A DNA stretch of 64,000 bases from Bradyrhizobium yuanmingense (GTDB taxonomy: Bacteria > Pseudomonadota > Alphaproteobacteria > Rhizobiales > Xanthobacteraceae), in NCBI RefSeq assembly GCF_900094575.1, contig NZ_FMAE01000004.1:62001-126000 (forward strand). The letters are read 5' to 3'. Below are positions 54,110 through 64,000 of this stretch, piece by piece. Under the pieces are notes generated by a model. It was not told the DNA's origin. It saw nothing but the letters and a program-made list of their open reading frames with translations, and did not search any database. Position 1 is the first letter of the stretch, and the number at the start of each line of letters is the position of its first letter. Both the position numbers and the translations under genes were made by a program.

Positions 54110-56140
54110 ATGACTGCTTTGCCCGAACCGCAGATCACCCGCTACACTCGTTGGCTCGAGCGAGAGCATGGGCTGCACTTCGATCCGAGAACGACCGAAG
54201 GCTATGATGCGCTGTGGCGGTGGTCCGTGAACGAGCTCGATGCCTTCTGGTCGTCTGTTTGGCAATATTTTGACATTCAGTCCCCCACGCCGCACAGCGC
54301 CGTGTTGGTGGAAGAAAAGATGCCCGGAGCGCGGTGGTTTCCCGGGACGCATCTCAACTATGTGCAGCAGGTGTTCCGCCATGCCGACGCAGCGCATGCC
54401 GCTGGCCACCCGGCGATCGTGTTCCAAAATGAGCGTATGCGTGAGCACGGCGAGCTGCAGGAGGTGAGCTGGCCCGAGCTGCGTCGGCAGGTGGCGTCGC
54501 TCGCGGCGCATCTGCAGCGCCTCGGCGTCGAAGCTGGCGACCGGGTAGTCGCCGTCCTACCAAACACGCCGCAGACCGCTGTGGCTTTTCTCGCGGTGGC
54601 GAGCCTCGGGGCTGTGTGGTCAGTGTGCTCTCCCGACATGGGTGCCATCGCGGTGCTCGATCGCTTCCGCCAAATTGCGCCCAAGATCCTGATCGCTTGC
54701 GATGGCTACGTGTACGGCGGCACGGAATACGACAAACTGACGGTGCTAGAGAATCTGCTTGGCGAATTGCCGAGCGTACAGCATGTGGTGCTGTGGCGAT
54801 GTCTAGATGCGAACGCCGAGCCGGGGCGCCTGGCCTCCGCGTCTCGGCAGTCGCACGACTTCGATCAGTTGACTGCCGACGAGGCGACCCTGGTGCCCAA
54901 GTGGGTCGGCTTCGACCACCCGCTGTGGGTCGTCTATTCTAGCGGTACGACCGGCCTGCCGAAGCCCATCGTGCATGGCCACGGCGGTGTGGTGCTTGAG
55001 GCGATCAAGATGCTCGGCCTGCACACGAATCTGGGCGCCACGGTCGACACGGGCGATCGCTACCACTGGTACAGCGCCACGGGTTGGATCATGTGGAACT
55101 CGCAGCTGGCGGGTCTGTTGCTCGGGACGACGATCTGCATCTACGACGGCAGCCCGGCCGGAAAGAGCGGGAATGCCGACTGGTCCACCCTGTGGCGCTT
55201 CGTCGACGAAGCCAGGGCGACCTTCTTCGGCGCCGGCAGTGCCTTTTTCTCCAGCTGCCTCAAAGCCGAGGTGAAGCCGAAGGAGATCCTCAAGCTCGCG
55301 CACCTGCGTGCCCTAGGAGCCACAGGCTCTCCGCTTGCCATCGAATGTTACCGCTGGGCCTACGACCACGTGCCTAAGGTTGAAGGAAAAGACATCTGGC
55401 TGTCGGTCGTATCGGGGGGCACCGATTTCGCCGGTGCTTTCATTGGGGGCCTGCCGACGCTGCCGGTCGTGGAAGGCGAGATGCAGTGCCGTTGTCTTGG
55501 TGCGGCAATCGAAGCATGGAATGAAGACGGAAAGCCGCTGACTGATGAAGTCGGTGAACTCGTTTGCACCAAGCCCATGCCGTCGATGCCGCTCTACTTC
55601 TGGAATGACCCTGACAACAAGCGCTACAACGAGAGCTATTTCGATATGTACCCGGGCGTTTGGCGTCACGGTGATTGGATTCGTCTCACGCCGAGCGGTG
55701 GCGCGATCATCTACGGCCGAAGCGACGCTACGATCAACCGCCATGGTATTCGTATGGGCACCTCTGAGCTCTATCGCGCTGCCGAAGCGCAGCCCGAAGT
55801 TATCGACAGTCTGGTGGTCGACCTCGAATACCTCGGCCGCGAAAGTTACATGCCACTCTTTGTGGTGTTGCGAGAGGGTCTGACCCTCGATCCGGCACTC
55901 GAAAAGCGCCTTCGCGAGGCCATCAAGACGGCGCTGTCAGCCCGCCATGTGCCAAACGAGATCATTCAAGTGAGTGCTATTCCGCGCACGCTGTCCGGTA
56001 AGAAGATGGAATTGCCTGTAAAGAAACTGCTGATGGGAACGGCGCCCGAGCAGCTGTTCAAGCTCGATGCGATGGCCAACGCGGATTGCGTACCCTGGTT
56101 CGTCGAGTTCGCGAAGCGGAGAATGTCTTCGAACGTCTGA
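54110..56140 (+). CDS. Acetoacetyl-CoA synthetase
   Basis: A 676-residue ligase of the acetoacetate-CoA ligase subfamily. It starts ITRYTRWLEREHGLHFD and contains the acetyl-CoA-synthetase-type N-terminal FWSSVWQYFDI, MPGARWFPGTHLNYVQQ, the P-loop VVYSSGTTGLPKPIVHGHGG, and the C-terminal RSDATINRHGIRMGTSELYR, with the lysine in LSGKKMELPVKKLL. It makes acetoacetyl-CoA from acetoacetate and ATP. This links to the thiolases of the window, which split acetoacetyl-CoA. It may also accept other 3-oxo-acids. Confidence 0.93.
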   Translation: MTALPEPQITRYTRWLEREHGLHFDPRTTEGYDALWRWSVNELDAFWSSVWQYFDIQSPTPHSAVLVEEKMPGARWFPGTHLNYVQQVFRHADAAHAAGHPAIVFQNERMREHGELQEVSWPELRRQVASLAAHLQRLGVEAGDRVVAVLPNTPQTAVAFLAVASLGAVWSVCSPDMGAIAVLDRFRQIAPKILIACDGYVYGGTEYDKLTVLENLLGELPSVQHVVLWRCLDANAEPGRLASASRQSHDFDQLTADEATLVPKWVGFDHPLWVVYSSGTTGLPKPIVHGHGGVVLEAIKMLGLHTNLGATVDTGDRYHWYSATGWIMWNSQLAGLLLGTTICIYDGSPAGKSGNADWSTLWRFVDEARATFFGAGSAFFSSCLKAEVKPKEILKLAHLRALGATGSPLAIECYRWAYDHVPKVEGKDIWLSVVSGGTDFAGAFIGGLPTLPVVEGEMQCRCLGAAIEAWNEDGKPLTDEVGELVCTKPMPSMPLYFWNDPDNKRYNESYFDMYPGVWRHGDWIRLTPSGGAIIYGRSDATINRHGIRMGTSELYRAAEAQPEVIDSLVVDLEYLGRESYMPLFVVLREGLTLDPALEKRLREAIKTALSARHVPNEIIQVSAIPRTLSGKKMELPVKKLLMGTAPEQLFKLDAMANADCVPWFVEFAKRRMSSNV

Positions 56141-57507: not shown

Positions 57508-57527
57508 AACTGCAAAATCTGACAGGC
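57508..57527 (+). promoter_or_regulatory. lux box before luxI
   Basis: AACTGCAAAATCTGACAGGC has the CTG-N10-CAG layout of LuxR/TraR sites, with AA and GC flanks near the ACCTG...CAGGT consensus. It ends 56 bases before the luxI start. This implies positive feedback of the LuxR protein on luxI and the gene behind it. Confidence 0.72.
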
Positions 57528-57583
57528 GATCACGTCTTCATTTTCTGCTGTCAAAGCCTTCTCGGTTGTTCGGGGAGGTCGGC

Positions 57584-58222
57584 ATGCATGCCATCGCGCT
57601 TCATAGGTCTGAATTTGGTGGCCATCTGGATTTGCTGACATCGATGTATCGATTGCGCCGACGCGTTTTCAAAGATCGGCTGCACTGGAGTGTGTCGGTC
57701 TCGGGCGACTTGGAAATAGATGTCTATGATGCTCTGAGCCCGACCTATCTTCTGGTGGTCTCAGATGACAACGAGGTGCTCGGCTGCGTCAGGCTGCTGC
57801 CGACAACAGGTCCAAACATGCTCGCCCACACCTTTGCCAATCTTCTCGGCGGCAGGGCGGCACCGAGTGACGAGCGCATTCTCGAAAGCTCGCGCTTCTG
57901 CGTCGACACTGAGCGCAACGTCGGCCCCGGCCGAGGCGGGCTCAATCGTGTCACCTTCGTGCTGTTTGCCGCAATGCTCGAGGCGATGCGAGCAGCGGGA
58001 GCACAGTCCATCGTGACTGTTACCGATGCCAGGATGGAACGCATCCTGAGAAGAGCCGGCTGGCCCTTGGAGCGCTTGTGCGACCCACAGCCGCTTGGAC
58101 AGACGATGGCGCTTGCAGGGTTTCTCCACGATTCGGACCAGGCGCTCGAGGCCATGTACCGCCAAGCCGGCGTCATTGGACCGGTGCTGGTTTTGCCCGG
58201 TGCTGAGCGCAAGGTTGCCTGA
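57584..58222 (+). CDS. LuxI-family acyl-homoserine lactone synthase
   Basis: A 212-residue autoinducer synthase. All invariant residues can be placed: MYRLRRRVFKDRLHW (R, F, W), EIDVYDAL (D, D), GCVRLLPTTGP (R) and ILESSRFCVD (E, R). ATG at 57584 has GGGGAGG 5 bases before; a 28-codon extension would run through the leader. The threonine in SIVTVTDARMERIL lies where 3-oxo-acyl-HSL makers often have Thr, which weakly favours a 3-oxo product. The signal cannot be read from sequence alone. The gene lies between luxR and an isochorismatase-fold gene 36 bases behind. Confidence 0.95.
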   Translation: MHAIALHRSEFGGHLDLLTSMYRLRRRVFKDRLHWSVSVSGDLEIDVYDALSPTYLLVVSDDNEVLGCVRLLPTTGPNMLAHTFANLLGGRAAPSDERILESSRFCVDTERNVGPGRGGLNRVTFVLFAAMLEAMRAAGAQSIVTVTDARMERILRRAGWPLERLCDPQPLGQTMALAGFLHDSDQALEAMYRQAGVIGPVLVLPGAERKVA

Positions 58223-58258
58223 TCTTTCGCTTAATTGTCGTAGCCGAGGTCTCGTCCC

Positions 58259-58792
58259 ATGCTGGCCGATCCGCGACATAGCTGCATCGTTCTTTTGAAC
58301 ATCACGCGAGTCGGTCGATTGGATGCTAATGCGTCCGCCCGCGCGCAGGGCGAAAGTCTCGCTCTGCTGTCTGCCTGCCGCGAGGTTTTTGGCATTCCCC
58401 AAATTGCGATTGGCGAATACGAGCGAGACCTGCTTCCAGATCACATTGCCGCGTCCGTCGAGCGCTTGGATGTCGATCCCTTGGCTCTTTGGTGGGACCC
58501 GCAGCTCGCCGGACGCCTCACGGAATTGGGCACGGGCGTGCTCTTTTTGGGCGGAGCATTCCTTGAAGAAGAGGTGCTGATCGCGGCACTGGAAGGAGTG
58601 CGGCACGGGTACGATATCCGGCTGGTCCCGGATTTGTCGCTTGCACGTGACAAGCGCGATCGGTCGATTGCTTTAGCGCGACTAGCCCATCACGGCGTAC
58701 TCTCCACGACATTACGCCAAGCTCTTCTTGAATGGGCCGTCTCACTGGGCGATCAGGAGGTCAGACGGACGGTTCGTGAATTGCTAGCCTAA
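58259..58792 (+). CDS. Isochorismatase-fold protein lacking the catalytic residues
   Basis: A 177-residue protein of the cysteine-hydrolase (isochorismatase/YcaC) fold. The C-terminal half is typical in order and spacing: LWWDPQLAGRLTELGTGVLF, ALEGVRHGYDIRLVPDLSLA, LARLAHHGVLSTT, LLEWA. The nucleophile motif, normally G-x-x-T-E-x-C-V, reads GGAFLEEEVL, so Cys is Glu, and the first catalytic Asp region (LLVDxQ in YcaC) is LLNITR. It therefore looks like a pseudoenzyme. It starts 36 bases after luxI with no terminator between and ends before a hairpin, so it should be co-expressed with luxI. A binding or signal-modulating role is possible. Confidence 0.75.
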   Translation: MLADPRHSCIVLLNITRVGRLDANASARAQGESLALLSACREVFGIPQIAIGEYERDLLPDHIAASVERLDVDPLALWWDPQLAGRLTELGTGVLFLGGAFLEEEVLIAALEGVRHGYDIRLVPDLSLARDKRDRSIALARLAHHGVLSTTLRQALLEWAVSLGDQEVRRTVRELLA

Positions 58793-58801
58793 TCGGCGCC
58801 T

Positions 58802-58823
58802 CCCGCAAGCTAGAGCTTGCGGG
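58802..58823 (+). terminator. Hairpin after the quorum-sensing unit
   Basis: CCCGCAAGCT-AG-AGCTTGCGGG is a perfect 10-bp stem, 9 bases after the stop. There is no T-run, so it may be a weak or Rho-assisted end, or protect the 3' end. Confidence 0.55.
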
Positions 58824-59273
58824 CCGGGCTCTCGTTGAACCGAGCCCGCTTCGCGGTCTCGGCCTTGCGGCTTCGATCCCTGGCGCAAACAGGTCGTCTA
58901 CAGATCCTGGCGCCTAAGTGCCGTCTACCTGGCAGGTGTCGTCTGCGTAATCGATCGCGGGCGACGGTCCCGACGACGTCGCCGAGATCGTTTGAGGCGA
59001 TGCTCTGAGGAGCCGGCCGCTGGCGGCCGGCGCTTTTGATGGGCCCCCGGAAGCCGGGGTGGGCGGCGCTCCCGCATAGCCCCGAACCGGCGGTCCGCAA
59101 CCGCGCCTCGGTAACCCGCTCGAGGTCGCTGGTGTCGTTGGCGCGGTCCTCCGCTGCCGCTTCGGCCGTTCCGGTGCGGTCCGCCTCTCGCGTTCGGGGC
59201 TTTCCGGTCGTTCTTCGCCGCCCACCCCGCCTTTCGGGGGCAGGGCGCGGAAGAGGAGCGAGCGGAGATCGTC
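58824..59273. other. GC-rich leader before the ArdC-like gene
   Basis: No gene is supported here. A second hairpin, GCCGGCCGC-TG-GCGGCCGGC followed by GCTTTT (59013-59038), could be a terminator or attenuator. Several short palindromes occur, including ACCTG-G-CAGGT at 58927. The base composition becomes clearly more GC-rich than in the luxRI area, so the boundary of a different DNA segment probably lies here. Confidence 0.45.
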
Positions 59274-60242
59274 ATGTCTAACAGTTCAACCCACCATCGC
59301 GCGGCCAAGCCGAAGGCAGGTCTCTACGAAGAAATCACCGCCCACATCGTTGCGGATCTGGAGGCGGGCATCTTCCCCTGGGCTCGGCCGTGGGGCACTG
59401 GTGGCGGCAGTCAGGCTTTCGCCCTGCCCAGAAATGCAGCCACGGGCAAAACCTATTCGGGGATCAACGTCCTGATCCTGTGGGGACGGCTGTTCGAGTG
59501 CAGCTTTGCCTCCTCGCGGTGGCTCACCTTTCGCCAAGCCTCAAGCCTCGGCGGATCAGTGCGCAAGGGAGAACACGGCGTCACCGTCTGCTATGCCGAT
59601 CGGTTCATTCCCAAACCCGAGCACGAAGAGGCGGGGCGCACCTCTCAAGGCGGACAGGAAGCCGAAGGGGCGGCCATTCCATTCCTGCGGCGCTACACCG
59701 TCTTCAATGTCGACCAGTGCGACAACTTGCCGGACCATTGTCTTGCGGAAGCACCAGCCTTGCCCGAGCGAGAAATCGTGCCGCAGGCCGAAGCGCTTAC
59801 CGTTGCAACACGGGCCGATATCCGCATCGGTGGCGCAAAGGCGTTTTACTCACCATCGGAAGACGCCGTGCACGTCCCGCCACAGCCCGCCTTTTACGAG
59901 CAGATCAACTACTACCGAACGGTATTTCACGAGCTTGGGCATTGGACCGGCCACCCCTCGCGCTTGAACCGGGATCAGTTGGGTGCATTTGGCACAAAGC
60001 TCTACGCCAACGAAGAGCTGATCGCCGAACTGACCGCAGCCTTCGTTTGTGCTGCGCTGACGATCAAGCCCACCGTCCGCCATGCCGATTACCTCGGCTC
60101 GTGGCTCAAGGTCCTTCGGGAAGACAGCCGCGCGATCTTCCGCGCCGCCAGCAAGGCCTCAAAGGCTGCCGACTTTCTGCTTGCCTTCGCAGAAGGCGGC
60201 GAGACCTCCGCAGCCGCGACACAGCCCGAGATTGGTCCGTAA
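59274..60242 (+). CDS. ArdC-like antirestriction protein with zincin motif
   Basis: A 322-residue protein. The N-terminal single-strand-DNA-binding domain is typical of ArdC/TraC primase-like proteins (GLYEEITAHIVADLEAGIFP, WARPW, ATGKTYSGINVLILW). The C-terminal metallopeptidase-like part has the zinc motif FHELGHWTGH (about residue 220) and the downstream glutamate in YANEELIAELTAAF. ArdC proteins protect incoming plasmid DNA from restriction. GAGCGGAG precedes the ATG. With the ParB-like and DUF736 genes behind, it marks plasmid or ICE DNA of Rhizobiales type. Confidence 0.93.
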   Translation: MSNSSTHHRAAKPKAGLYEEITAHIVADLEAGIFPWARPWGTGGGSQAFALPRNAATGKTYSGINVLILWGRLFECSFASSRWLTFRQASSLGGSVRKGEHGVTVCYADRFIPKPEHEEAGRTSQGGQEAEGAAIPFLRRYTVFNVDQCDNLPDHCLAEAPALPEREIVPQAEALTVATRADIRIGGAKAFYSPSEDAVHVPPQPAFYEQINYYRTVFHELGHWTGHPSRLNRDQLGAFGTKLYANEELIAELTAAFVCAALTIKPTVRHADYLGSWLKVLREDSRAIFRAASKASKAADFLLAFAEGGETSAAATQPEIGP

Positions 60243-60361: not shown

Positions 60362-62092
60362 ATGGAACTGCGCAACATCGCTCTTTGCAATCTCAGGATC
60401 GCAAACGTCAACGTCCGGCATAGCCGGAAAGCCCCTGATATCTCCGACATCCTGCCATCGGTCCGCGCGCGCGGCGTGCTGCAACCCTTGCTGGTCCGGC
60501 CCCAGGGCGACGCCTTCGAGATCGTCGCCGGCCGACGCCGTTTCTTTGCCGCAAGCAAGGTCGCTGAGGAGCAGGGGATGCCGACCGCAGATGTCCTGCT
60601 GCCTTGCGCGGTTACGGAATCTGGCAACGACGCCGACGCTCCGGAAGCGTCCCTGATTGAGAACGTAGCACGCGCGCCAATGGACGAACTGCAAGAATAT
60701 GAAGCGTTCGCCAAGCTGTTGAAGCAGGGAAAGAGCGTCGCCGACATCGCCCAAACCTTCGGCCAGACCGAGCGCTATATCAAACAGCGCCTTGCGCTCG
60801 CCGGCCTCAACAGCGCTATCAAGCAGGCCTACCAGAACGGCGACATCGAGCCCGAGGAATTGCAACTGCTCGCCAGCGCCACACGCAGCCAGCAAAAGGA
60901 CTGGGTCGCGGCGTTTGAGGCGGAGAATGGTCCGGATGGCGATGTTGATGAAGCCCCAAGGGGCCACCAGTTGAAGCAATGGCTGTTCGGGAGCGAGCAG
61001 ATCGCAACCACCGCTGCGCTGTTTCCGCTCGAAGCCTACAAGGGCGAAATCGTCACCGATCTTTTCGGCGACGTCAGCTATTTTGCAGATAGCGCAGGTT
61101 TCTGGACCTTGCAGAACGTTGCCATTGCGAGCATGAGAGACGACCTTGCGGTCAAGGGCTGGAAGGTCACGGTGCTCGACAAAGGCACGCGATTTCCGTC
61201 ATGGCAATATGACGAGGTCCCGTTGGAGGACGGCGGCGAAGCCTTCATCGAGGTCCGCAACAATGGCGAGGTGGAGGTTCACGAAGGCTACCGAGCTTAC
61301 GCGGAAACTTGCAGCGGGACCAAGGCAGAGGAGTCGGGCGGAGCGCCGCGAGCTTCACGACCCGAACTCACCAGGGCCGCCGAGAACTACCTTGCCCTGC
61401 ACCGGCACGCCATCGTCCGTGCGGAGCTGCTGGCTCACCCAGGCATCGCCCTGCGGCTCGCGGTCGCCCATATGATCGGCAGTTCACCGATCTGGAGCGT
61501 CAAGCCTGACCCGCAGCGAGCGGACAAGGAGACGACCAGCCAAAGCGTAGCGGCAAGCCCTGCCCAATCGGCCCTCGATAGCGAACGGGATGCCATTCTC
61601 GACCTCTTGCAGGTCGAGAAGAGCTATTACGGCACCGTCACGCGTGGCAACGGAGATGCGTTCACGGCGGTCGGCCTGTTTGCCAGATTGCTGGCGCTGC
61701 CCGACGATGCCGTGCTGCGGATCGTTGCCCTCGTCATGGCCGAGACCTTGGCGGCTGGTTCGATCCTCAACGAGGCCGCTGGGCTCGCGATCAAACCGGA
61801 CGTGACACAGTGGTGGAAGCTGGACGACGTCTTTCTCGACCTCCTCAAGGATCGAACTGCGATCAACACGTTGCTCTCCGAGATCGCGGGCAAGGCTGTT
61901 GCGGACGCCAATGTGTCGGAGACCGGCAAGGTGCAGAAAAAGATCATCCACGACTGCCTGAACGGCGAGGGAAGGGAGCGCGCTGAGGGCTTCGTGCCCC
62001 GCTACATGACTTTCCCGATCGGCCATTACGACCCGAACAAAACCCTTGAAATCGCACGGGCCTCAGAAAGCATTAACGCTTTGTTTACCTGA
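60362..62092 (+). CDS. ParB/RepB-like nuclease-domain protein, large form
   Basis: A 576-residue protein. The ParB/sulfiredoxin-type domain is in residues 1-110: DILPSVRARGVLQPLLVRPQ, EIVAGRRRFFAASKVAEEQG, then SLIENVARAPMDELQEYEAF. A helix-turn-helix follows (KSVADIAQTFGQTERYIKQR). The rest is a long region of unknown function typical of plasmid versions in Rhizobiales and sphingomonads. AAGAAGGAC precedes the ATG at 60362; upstream extension would overlap the ArdC gene. No ParA partner is beside it, so it is more likely an accessory regulator of plasmid or ICE maintenance than a partition protein. Confidence 0.92.
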   Translation: MELRNIALCNLRIANVNVRHSRKAPDISDILPSVRARGVLQPLLVRPQGDAFEIVAGRRRFFAASKVAEEQGMPTADVLLPCAVTESGNDADAPEASLIENVARAPMDELQEYEAFAKLLKQGKSVADIAQTFGQTERYIKQRLALAGLNSAIKQAYQNGDIEPEELQLLASATRSQQKDWVAAFEAENGPDGDVDEAPRGHQLKQWLFGSEQIATTAALFPLEAYKGEIVTDLFGDVSYFADSAGFWTLQNVAIASMRDDLAVKGWKVTVLDKGTRFPSWQYDEVPLEDGGEAFIEVRNNGEVEVHEGYRAYAETCSGTKAEESGGAPRASRPELTRAAENYLALHRHAIVRAELLAHPGIALRLAVAHMIGSSPIWSVKPDPQRADKETTSQSVAASPAQSALDSERDAILDLLQVEKSYYGTVTRGNGDAFTAVGLFARLLALPDDAVLRIVALVMAETLAAGSILNEAAGLAIKPDVTQWWKLDDVFLDLLKDRTAINTLLSEIAGKAVADANVSETGKVQKKIIHDCLNGEGRERAEGFVPRYMTFPIGHYDPNKTLEIARASESINALFT

Positions 62093-63815: not shown

Positions 63816-63879
63816 GTGCTCTTGCCTCATTTGGACAGAACCATCCAAAGTTGTATGAGTGATTCCGGAGGGACGCTTA

Positions 63880-64000
63880 TTGAACTGGTCGGTGAATTCC
63901 AAGCAGGGCCAATCCGATGATCACGCCGTCTCCTGCCCGACCACGGGTCATGATGGCGGCGACTGGGCGTGGGAGTTCTTGCGGCGGAACGCCGACTATG
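63880..64000 (+). CDS. Plasmid-type transcriptional regulator, N-terminal part only
   Basis: The first 40 codons of a gene that runs out of the window. TTG at 63880 follows GGAGGGA with 6 bases spacing. The end of the visible part, GGDWAWEFLRRNADY, matches the start of the DUF6499/DUF2285-type regulators that stand beside DUF736 genes on Rhizobiales plasmids and ICEs. This supports the mobile-element reading of the right end. Confidence 0.65.
   Translation, partial: MNWSVNSKQGQSDDHAVSCPTTGHDGGDWAWEFLRRNADY

Follow-up and report, generated by a model that had tools for sequence, protein, structure and literature searches.

A predicted isochorismatase-fold pseudoenzyme encoded next to luxI in mobile elements of Bradyrhizobium

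Introduction

Quorum-sensing circuits of the LuxI type are usually viewed as two-gene units plus a few damping partners. Here we analyse a stretch of 64,000 nucleotides from Bradyrhizobium yuanmingense (assembly GCF_900094575.1, contig NZ_FMAE01000004.1, positions 62,001 to 126,000), called the window in the following, in which a third gene follows luxR and luxI. We use the label hyd for this gene, which encodes a pseudo-hydrolase of 177 amino acids (Table 1).

The isochorismatase fold as well as luxI-linked accessory genes are already known. In the consulted parts of a published survey, RsaM, RsaL and MupX are described as luxI-tied accessory genes that damp the signal circuit, MupX being an amidase-hydrolase that degrades the N-acyl-homoserine lactone (AHL); unlike hyd, they are mostly located between luxR and luxI, and the word isochorismatase does not occur in the text (PMC3386692). 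A superfamily member with a known activity is HqiA, according to the consulted parts of its report an isochorismatase-like cysteine hydrolase and characterised AHL lactonase with the residues D, K and C, obtained from a metagenomic fosmid for which no lux operon is mentioned there (PMC5430456). HqiA belongs to the same superfamily as hyd and its substrate class is what the neighbouring luxI would make; in contrast to hyd, as far as a comparison by description goes, it keeps D, K and C and cleaves the AHL.

Two further comparisons come from conjugative elements, again from partly consulted sources. TraM and QseM (PMC13043044, PMC10359603) are, like hyd, small proteins of TraR/TraI-controlled conjugative elements, and QseM, a loss-of-function domain paralogue, has DUF2285 as its lone domain and blocks both TraR and FseA (PMC10359603). 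However, hyd matches neither the TraM domain (PF09228) nor the domain that makes up QseM (lone PF10074). In the integrative and conjugative elements of Mesorhizobium, traI1 and traI2-msi172-msi171 have tra boxes 69 and 67 bp upstream, respectively, and FseA (msi172-msi171) of ICEMlSymR7A resembles hyd in its position behind traI2 with a tra box 66-69 bp upstream (PMC5882170). FseA is nevertheless an unrelated protein: hyd lacks DUF6499 and DUF2285, and an FseA-like gene is present separately at our locus, encoded in one reading frame and not, as in Mesorhizobium, by the two genes msi172/msi171 (PMC5882170). A luxI-linked isochorismatase-fold pseudoenzyme was not described in the literature searched, which covers few subscription papers.

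Results

The first-pass annotation had assigned the hyd product to the isochorismatase/cysteine-hydrolase fold, and AlphaFold2 (AF2) prediction, Foldseek search and VIA-align comparison with YcaC agree on this. The only Pfam match at E values up to 1 is to PF00857 (isochorismatase), which with 22 bits remains below the gathering score of 27. A profile of 27 hyd relatives matched the solved structures 1yac (E 1.8e-4) and 8rkz (E 7.2e-4), and the AF2 model based on the 27-row alignment (predicted local distance difference test score 87.7, predicted template modelling score 0.86) has the cysteine hydrolase 8rkz as its top Foldseek match (E 6.3e-8). VIA-align superimposed 174 residues of the model on 8rkz_B with Z 18.4 and a root-mean-square deviation of 2.7 Å; Z was 17.5-18.4 for 8rkz, 8rl0, 4wgf and 1yac, with two YcaC entries at 17.5 and 18.2. 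By all three methods hyd has the Rossmann-like cysteine-hydrolase fold, and it shares this fold over its whole length with the YcaC/isochorismatase-like hydrolases (PF00857).

The catalytic triad of YcaC consists of Asp, Lys and Cys. As originally read from the translation, hyd carries LLNITR (residues 12-17) around the position of the Asp and GGAFLEEEVL (residues 98-107) around that of the Cys. Comparison of 27 hyd family members with four YcaC-like relatives, likewise from this bacterial family, showed N in all 27 at the catalytic Asp column, whereas the four relatives have D, and E (18) or D (9) at the catalytic Cys column, whereas the relatives have C; the lysine column holds R or K in the four relatives, but neither in any of the 27. 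We extended the comparison to 46 distinct full-length hyd sequences, which remained from 101 matches of at least 150 bits after removal of copies and short pieces. The catalytic positions of these are given in Table 1, and positions 71-73 are without Lys or Arg in all of them. Invariant in all 46 are N14, E104, R121, R130, R153 and Q154, and none of the four YcaC-like relatives shares N14, E104, R121 or R153. Shared with the relatives are D125, R141, E158 and W159 (all four) and W78 (three).

A triad located elsewhere in the protein was looked for in both alignments and not found; one of the 27 members is entirely free of Cys and four of Lys, so that hyd does not conceal a triad at another site. 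None of the 46 sequences contains the Asp/Lys/Cys set of the YcaC group and of HqiA-type lactonases, and the proposal that hyd encodes an isochorismatase-fold pseudoenzyme thus holds for every one of them. In summary, hyd differs from the YcaC group by Asn for Asp, Glu or Asp for Cys and a lysine site without Lys or Arg, by its score below the Pfam gathering threshold and by its near-constant luxI neighbour. The family boundary lies between the last full-length hyd match at 203 bits and the next full-length one, G281, at 59.5. Weak matches and G281/L047 were considered as hyd family members and rejected, as they resemble YcaC-like hydrolases of the ordinary kind; Asp and Cys are both present in the four that were aligned.

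The median ratio of nonsynonymous to synonymous substitution rates (dN/dS), calculated from pairs that are not independent of each other, was 0.23 for hyd (68 pairs), 0.17 for luxI (67) and 0.14 for luxR (25). Judged from these ratios, hyd is kept under purifying selection. Taken with the alignments, hyd appears to be a maintained pseudoenzyme under constraint that is dead by known chemistry, with replacements that are fixed and family-specific.

The gene had been expected to be conserved next to luxI in related genomes, and our survey of 265 Bradyrhizobium genomes bears this out. We tabulated 82 luxI rows, the best 81 and the second luxI of the window's genome, and defined a luxI group by score, without a luxI tree, as the matches with at least 250 bits. 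A hyd match follows on the same strand behind 54 of these 57 luxI matches; 52 are full-length and two partial (the second copy in G358 and the first in G425). The three luxI matches without hyd are located at a contig end (G369), in G376, where luxR and luxI are accompanied by a short hyd remnant and an adjoining VirD4, and in G204, where neither luxR nor hyd was found at the locus. Among the 25 tabulated rows below 250 bits hyd is absent in 23, and the two with hyd are partial luxI matches; one row below this score, a partial luxI without hyd (G409:C162), belongs by identity (76%) to the luxI group. Seen from the other side, 12 of the 68 hyd rows are without such a luxI match. Six of these are at contig ends (G441 twice, G369 twice, G485 and G393), four are fragments or broken copies (G425, G329, G486 and G105), and the remaining two are the ordinary YcaC-like G281 and G402, with an intact hyd behind luxR and a frame-broken luxI. 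Thus, hyd is a near-constant neighbour of one luxI group in Bradyrhizobium mobile elements. The window's genome has a second luxI (L120, G000:C76:1566-2138), which is 54% identical and has no hyd match behind it. Each of the three genes luxR, luxI and hyd is split over reading frames at L024, which looks like a joint decay.

Outside Bradyrhizobium, the luxR-luxI-hyd trio was found in one sampled genome of the same family (G095/L045), without the box. Across 397 genomes of the order, the hyd profile at 1e-15 matched three Bradyrhizobium genomes and one outsider, G554. No hyd relative was detected in plasmid records by tblastn at 1e-5, and all of the 507 plasmid records in which a luxI relative was found at 1e-30 show less than 60% identity.

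Full hyd and luxI genes are present together at 63 loci (37 after removal of identical ones), and all three genes at 30. The protein distances of hyd and luxI correlate with a Mantel r of 0.92 at 32 loci (0 of 2000 permutations as high). At the loci with all three genes, r was 0.94 (n=30), and the partial correlation given luxR was still 0.83 (0 of 1000 permutations as high); the partial r between hyd and luxR given luxI was -0.18 (30 loci). This tracking of distances would fit a synthase-side partner for hyd. The unity of hyd as one clade was not supported in a tree with mostly low internal support, which included a misread row (ycac_L051, wrong reading frame, branch 4.0), and no inference was drawn from it.

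As first annotated, hyd starts at 58259, 36 bases past the luxI stop codon, and ends at 58792, and the spacing between the two genes leaves no room for another gene. An alternative, longer GTG open reading frame (ORF) for luxI from 57500 would overlap the lux box. A transcript shared by luxI and hyd had also been proposed; the lux box is indeed located ahead of both genes, and the short spacing suggests that they are co-transcribed. An acyl-CoA synthetase-like gene upstream of luxR (54110-56140) was considered as a member of the unit and rejected, since it was not found at 31 other loci compared, some of which are too short upstream. The hairpin that the first-pass annotation had placed behind hyd is present, and 8 of 9 aligned loci keep it, though with some mismatches; its role as terminator is unproven, since it has no T-tract and is absent from the terminator-scan list. 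The block around this hairpin (58802-58890) is conserved in 8 of 9 loci and diverged in L005, and it is not conserved in L021, the locus where luxI and luxR were not found. A twister-sister ribozyme on the minus strand (58781-58875) is unlikely: its score of 22.7 bits falls short of the gathering score (34), 6 of 8 aligned copies lack a base in the core stretch, and no match was listed at six related loci in a larger, less sensitive search.

The centre of the lux box lies 66.5 bases before the ATG of luxI. In 31 of 32 loci, among which there are close relatives, luxI is preceded by a CTG-N10-CAG dyad that starts 70-75 bases ahead of it; shuffled sequences gave a mean of 2.4 and a maximum of 7. 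With a pattern built from these boxes, with which other box forms would be missed, we scanned 14 whole genomes. All 12 exact sites precede a luxI of the hyd module, in 11 of the 14 genomes; the box before the module luxI has one mismatch in G324 and G138 and was not found there in G533. Away from the module there are 28 one-mismatch sites in the 14 genomes versus 22 for the reversed control pattern. Because the pattern came from these same promoters, the informative part of the scan is the absence elsewhere: in the window's genome the luxI site is the sole match with at most one mismatch. A second lux box in the element was searched for and rejected, the window containing only two more sites with 3 mismatches each, and no further box of this form was found in a 40-kb stretch that begins shortly before the end of the window and reaches about 38 kb past it. 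Since the luxI-hyd site is the only box of its form found in the genome, hyd is a main candidate for an output or feedback arm of the transfer switch.

On the same strand downstream of hyd we found genes for ArdC, a ParB/KorB protein, a DUF736 protein, an FseA-like protein and a peptidase S26, followed further downstream by a relaxase with DUF3363, VirD4 and VirB11-, VirB4-, VirB6-, VirB8- and VirB10/TrbI-type proteins. The hyd module lies in a conjugative region, and luxR, luxI, a tra box and conjugation genes occur in one region, as in TraR/TraI-controlled conjugative elements. The FseA-like gene combines PF20109 and PF10074 in one ORF of 278 amino acids. ArdC, partial matches counted, is encoded within 5 kb behind hyd in the window and in 9 of the 23 other loci L002-L024. 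The full trio is present without detected ArdC at seven loci (L005, L012-L014, L016, L017 and L019); therefore, hyd in Bradyrhizobium goes with luxI and not with that backbone. Of 30 ArdC loci across the order, three have an adjoining hyd-like protein: the window, G554 (L124 10096-10692) and G559 (L157). The latter two belong to other families; their proteins are YcaC-like with Asn for the Cys, located by ardC/parB and VirD4, and the catalytic Asp is kept in one and is Glu in the other. A wider role of hyd-like proteins in mobile elements is thus possible.

Two other parts of these regions deserve mention. Directly before ardC, a GC-rich non-coding leader (59005-59273) that includes a T-tailed stem (59012-59031) is strongly conserved in 7 of 7 aligned loci and could serve the antirestriction gene as a leader or single-stranded promoter. 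Behind the transfer genes, a stretch encoding an AAA ATPase, a subtilase, an SduA_C protein, a ResIII helicase, a QueC-like protein and a 1033-amino-acid ORF without Pfam match (L119:3107-15262) looks like defence cargo.

Table 1. Features of the luxI-hyd locus, with positions in the window
Feature	Position	Strand	Remarks
luxR/traR-type regulator gene, 243 amino acids	56652..57383	+	Pfam Autoind_bind + GerE; best NCBIfam match TraR, below cut-off
lux/tra box before luxI	57509..57526	+	CTG-N10-CAG dyad
luxI/traI-type AHL synthase gene, 212 amino acids	57584..58222	+	Pfam Autoind_synth 180.8 bits; NCBIfam TraI models below cut-off
hyd, pseudo-hydrolase gene, 177 amino acids, YcaC/isochorismatase fold	58259..58792	+	
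Asn14 codon, catalytic-Asp position	58298..58300	+	N in 46/46; D in 4/4 YcaC-like relatives
Glu105 codon, nucleophilic-Cys position	58571..58573	+	E 26, D 20 of 46; C in 4/4 YcaC-like relatives
Conserved hairpin 3' of hyd	58802..58823	+	
ArdC-type antirestriction gene, conjugative-element context	59274..60242	+	
ParB/KorB-type gene	60362..62092	+	
FseA-like activator gene start (PF20109 + PF10074)	63859..64000, continues beyond window as L118:1860-2696	+	

Discussion

The loss of the triad, the purifying selection, the lux box, the linkage to luxI and the conjugative context together favour a reading of hyd as a quorum-induced, non-catalytic regulator of the transfer switch of the conjugative element, to which we lean with some reserve. 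AHL-loaded TraR would switch on traI and hyd together, and the hyd protein would be produced along with TraI once the circuit is triggered. It would then act by binding and not by catalysis, setting the strength or the threshold of the switch. The likeliest targets would be TraI or its signal, which would give a feedback on signal supply, followed by TraR or the FseA-like activator, where hyd would take the role that is held by TraM or QseM elsewhere. Binding of hyd to any of these partners is what we infer.

Several observations speak against this regulator. At L021 an intact hyd is present, but neither luxI nor luxR was found within 5 kb of it, and at L113 an intact hyd is accompanied by a frame-broken luxI. 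Of the interpretation first given, the pseudoenzyme behind luxI and the lux box is supported, and binding of the signal, a precursor, LuxR or LuxI would be its putative role; these two loci weigh against a strictly LuxI-bound role. Conversely, damaged hyd genes are located behind a stop-free luxI match at three loci (a remnant in G376, partial copies in G358 and G425), and hyd is therefore not indispensable. The Cys-less relatives of G554 and G559 are found by ardC with no lux genes detected in the stretches examined. In addition, the correlation between hyd and luxI distances could stem from adjacency alone, the acidic residue at the nucleophile position leaves some other chemistry possible, and a divergent QseM, with about 18% identity to the FseA domain, may escape detection with PF10074.

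The regulator could take the form of an antiactivator that binds TraR, the FseA-like activator or both, substituting for TraM or QseM in a circuit-induced negative feedback; we consider this form possible, though it is far from the expected outcome. The switches of this kind that are known possess a brake. A TraM family match was found in only one of the 50 hyd-bearing genomes searched (of 58), which is not that of the window. This search had a single positive control, the one match in G352, and the 14 control genomes gave none, which lowers the weight of the absence. A QseM-type lone DUF2285 protein was not found in the window's genome, where the single DUF2285 protein is the FseA-like one, and in 6 of 7 genomes hyd is followed on the same strand by a DUF2285 gene, at a distance of up to about 34 kb. 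However, five of these seven genomes have more than one DUF2285 match, and these may be of the FseA or the QseM type. QseM itself, in the consulted part of its description, is a precedent for a domain paralogue turned antiactivator (PMC10359603). An argument against an antiactivator is that the distances of hyd do not follow those of luxR after correction for luxI.

It might also be possible, although we are rather doubtful, that hyd is a pseudo-lactonase that binds the signal, holding the AHL or its acyl precursor uncleaved in the old pocket and thereby buffering or presenting it. The active-site positions are replaced, but fixed (N14) or restricted (E/D105), and lie beside the invariant E104, and the evolution of hyd tracks luxI most closely. 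HqiA, as partly described, shows that the same superfamily contains an AHL lactonase (PMC5430456); since it acts on AHLs, signal binding by hyd is a concrete test. A bolder version, which we judge unlikely, sees hyd as a hydrolase turned receptor that would bind the AHL or the acyl donor of TraI uncleaved and would be the sole dedicated output or threshold-setter of the TraR/TraI transfer circuit.

Equally unlikely is a positive output, in which hyd would occupy the place of msi172-msi171 (fseA) behind traI2 and relay the quorum signal to excision or transfer. The operon position and box spacing match the Mesorhizobium traI2 unit, as given in the consulted part of its description (PMC5882170), and a second box of this form is missing in the about 38 kb past the window and elsewhere in the genome. 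However, the FseA-like gene is present separately, and a long transcript is possible that starts at the lux box, covers ardC and parB and reaches the FseA-like gene; hyd would be a passenger on it. This latter idea is countered by 11 loci (L005 and L011-L020) with an intact hyd, where neither ardC nor parB was detected in the stretch examined behind it.

An enzyme with new chemistry, in which E/D105, E104, N14 and an Arg cluster would replace the Cys triad, seems to us improbable. In its favour are the low dN/dS and the replaced positions, which are either fixed or limited to E/D, and PhzD-type isochorismatases work without a Cys nucleophile. But these keep the Asp, which is Asn in every full-length hyd, Lys and Arg are missing at 71-73, and some family members are without any Cys or any Lys. 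A decaying or chance passenger gene beside luxI, finally, is already contradicted by the linkage to the luxI group, the invariant residues and the dN/dS of hyd, and we regard it as very improbable even though hyd is broken alongside a broken luxI in L022/L041 and L024 and behind the three stop-free luxI matches named above.

A third gene, encoding a fixed pseudoenzyme, accompanies one luxI group across a nitrogen-fixing genus, within the switch of a conjugative element. The regulator that we favour is a testable claim on the way in which the quorum control over gene transfer is set where neither TraM nor QseM was found, and likewise on the reuse of a hydrolase fold for signalling. If hyd were indeed a receptor, it would bind the AHL without belonging to the LuxR family and would be co-inherited with its synthase. 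In Bradyrhizobium, the quorum switch thus seems to carry a previously undescribed non-catalytic partner.
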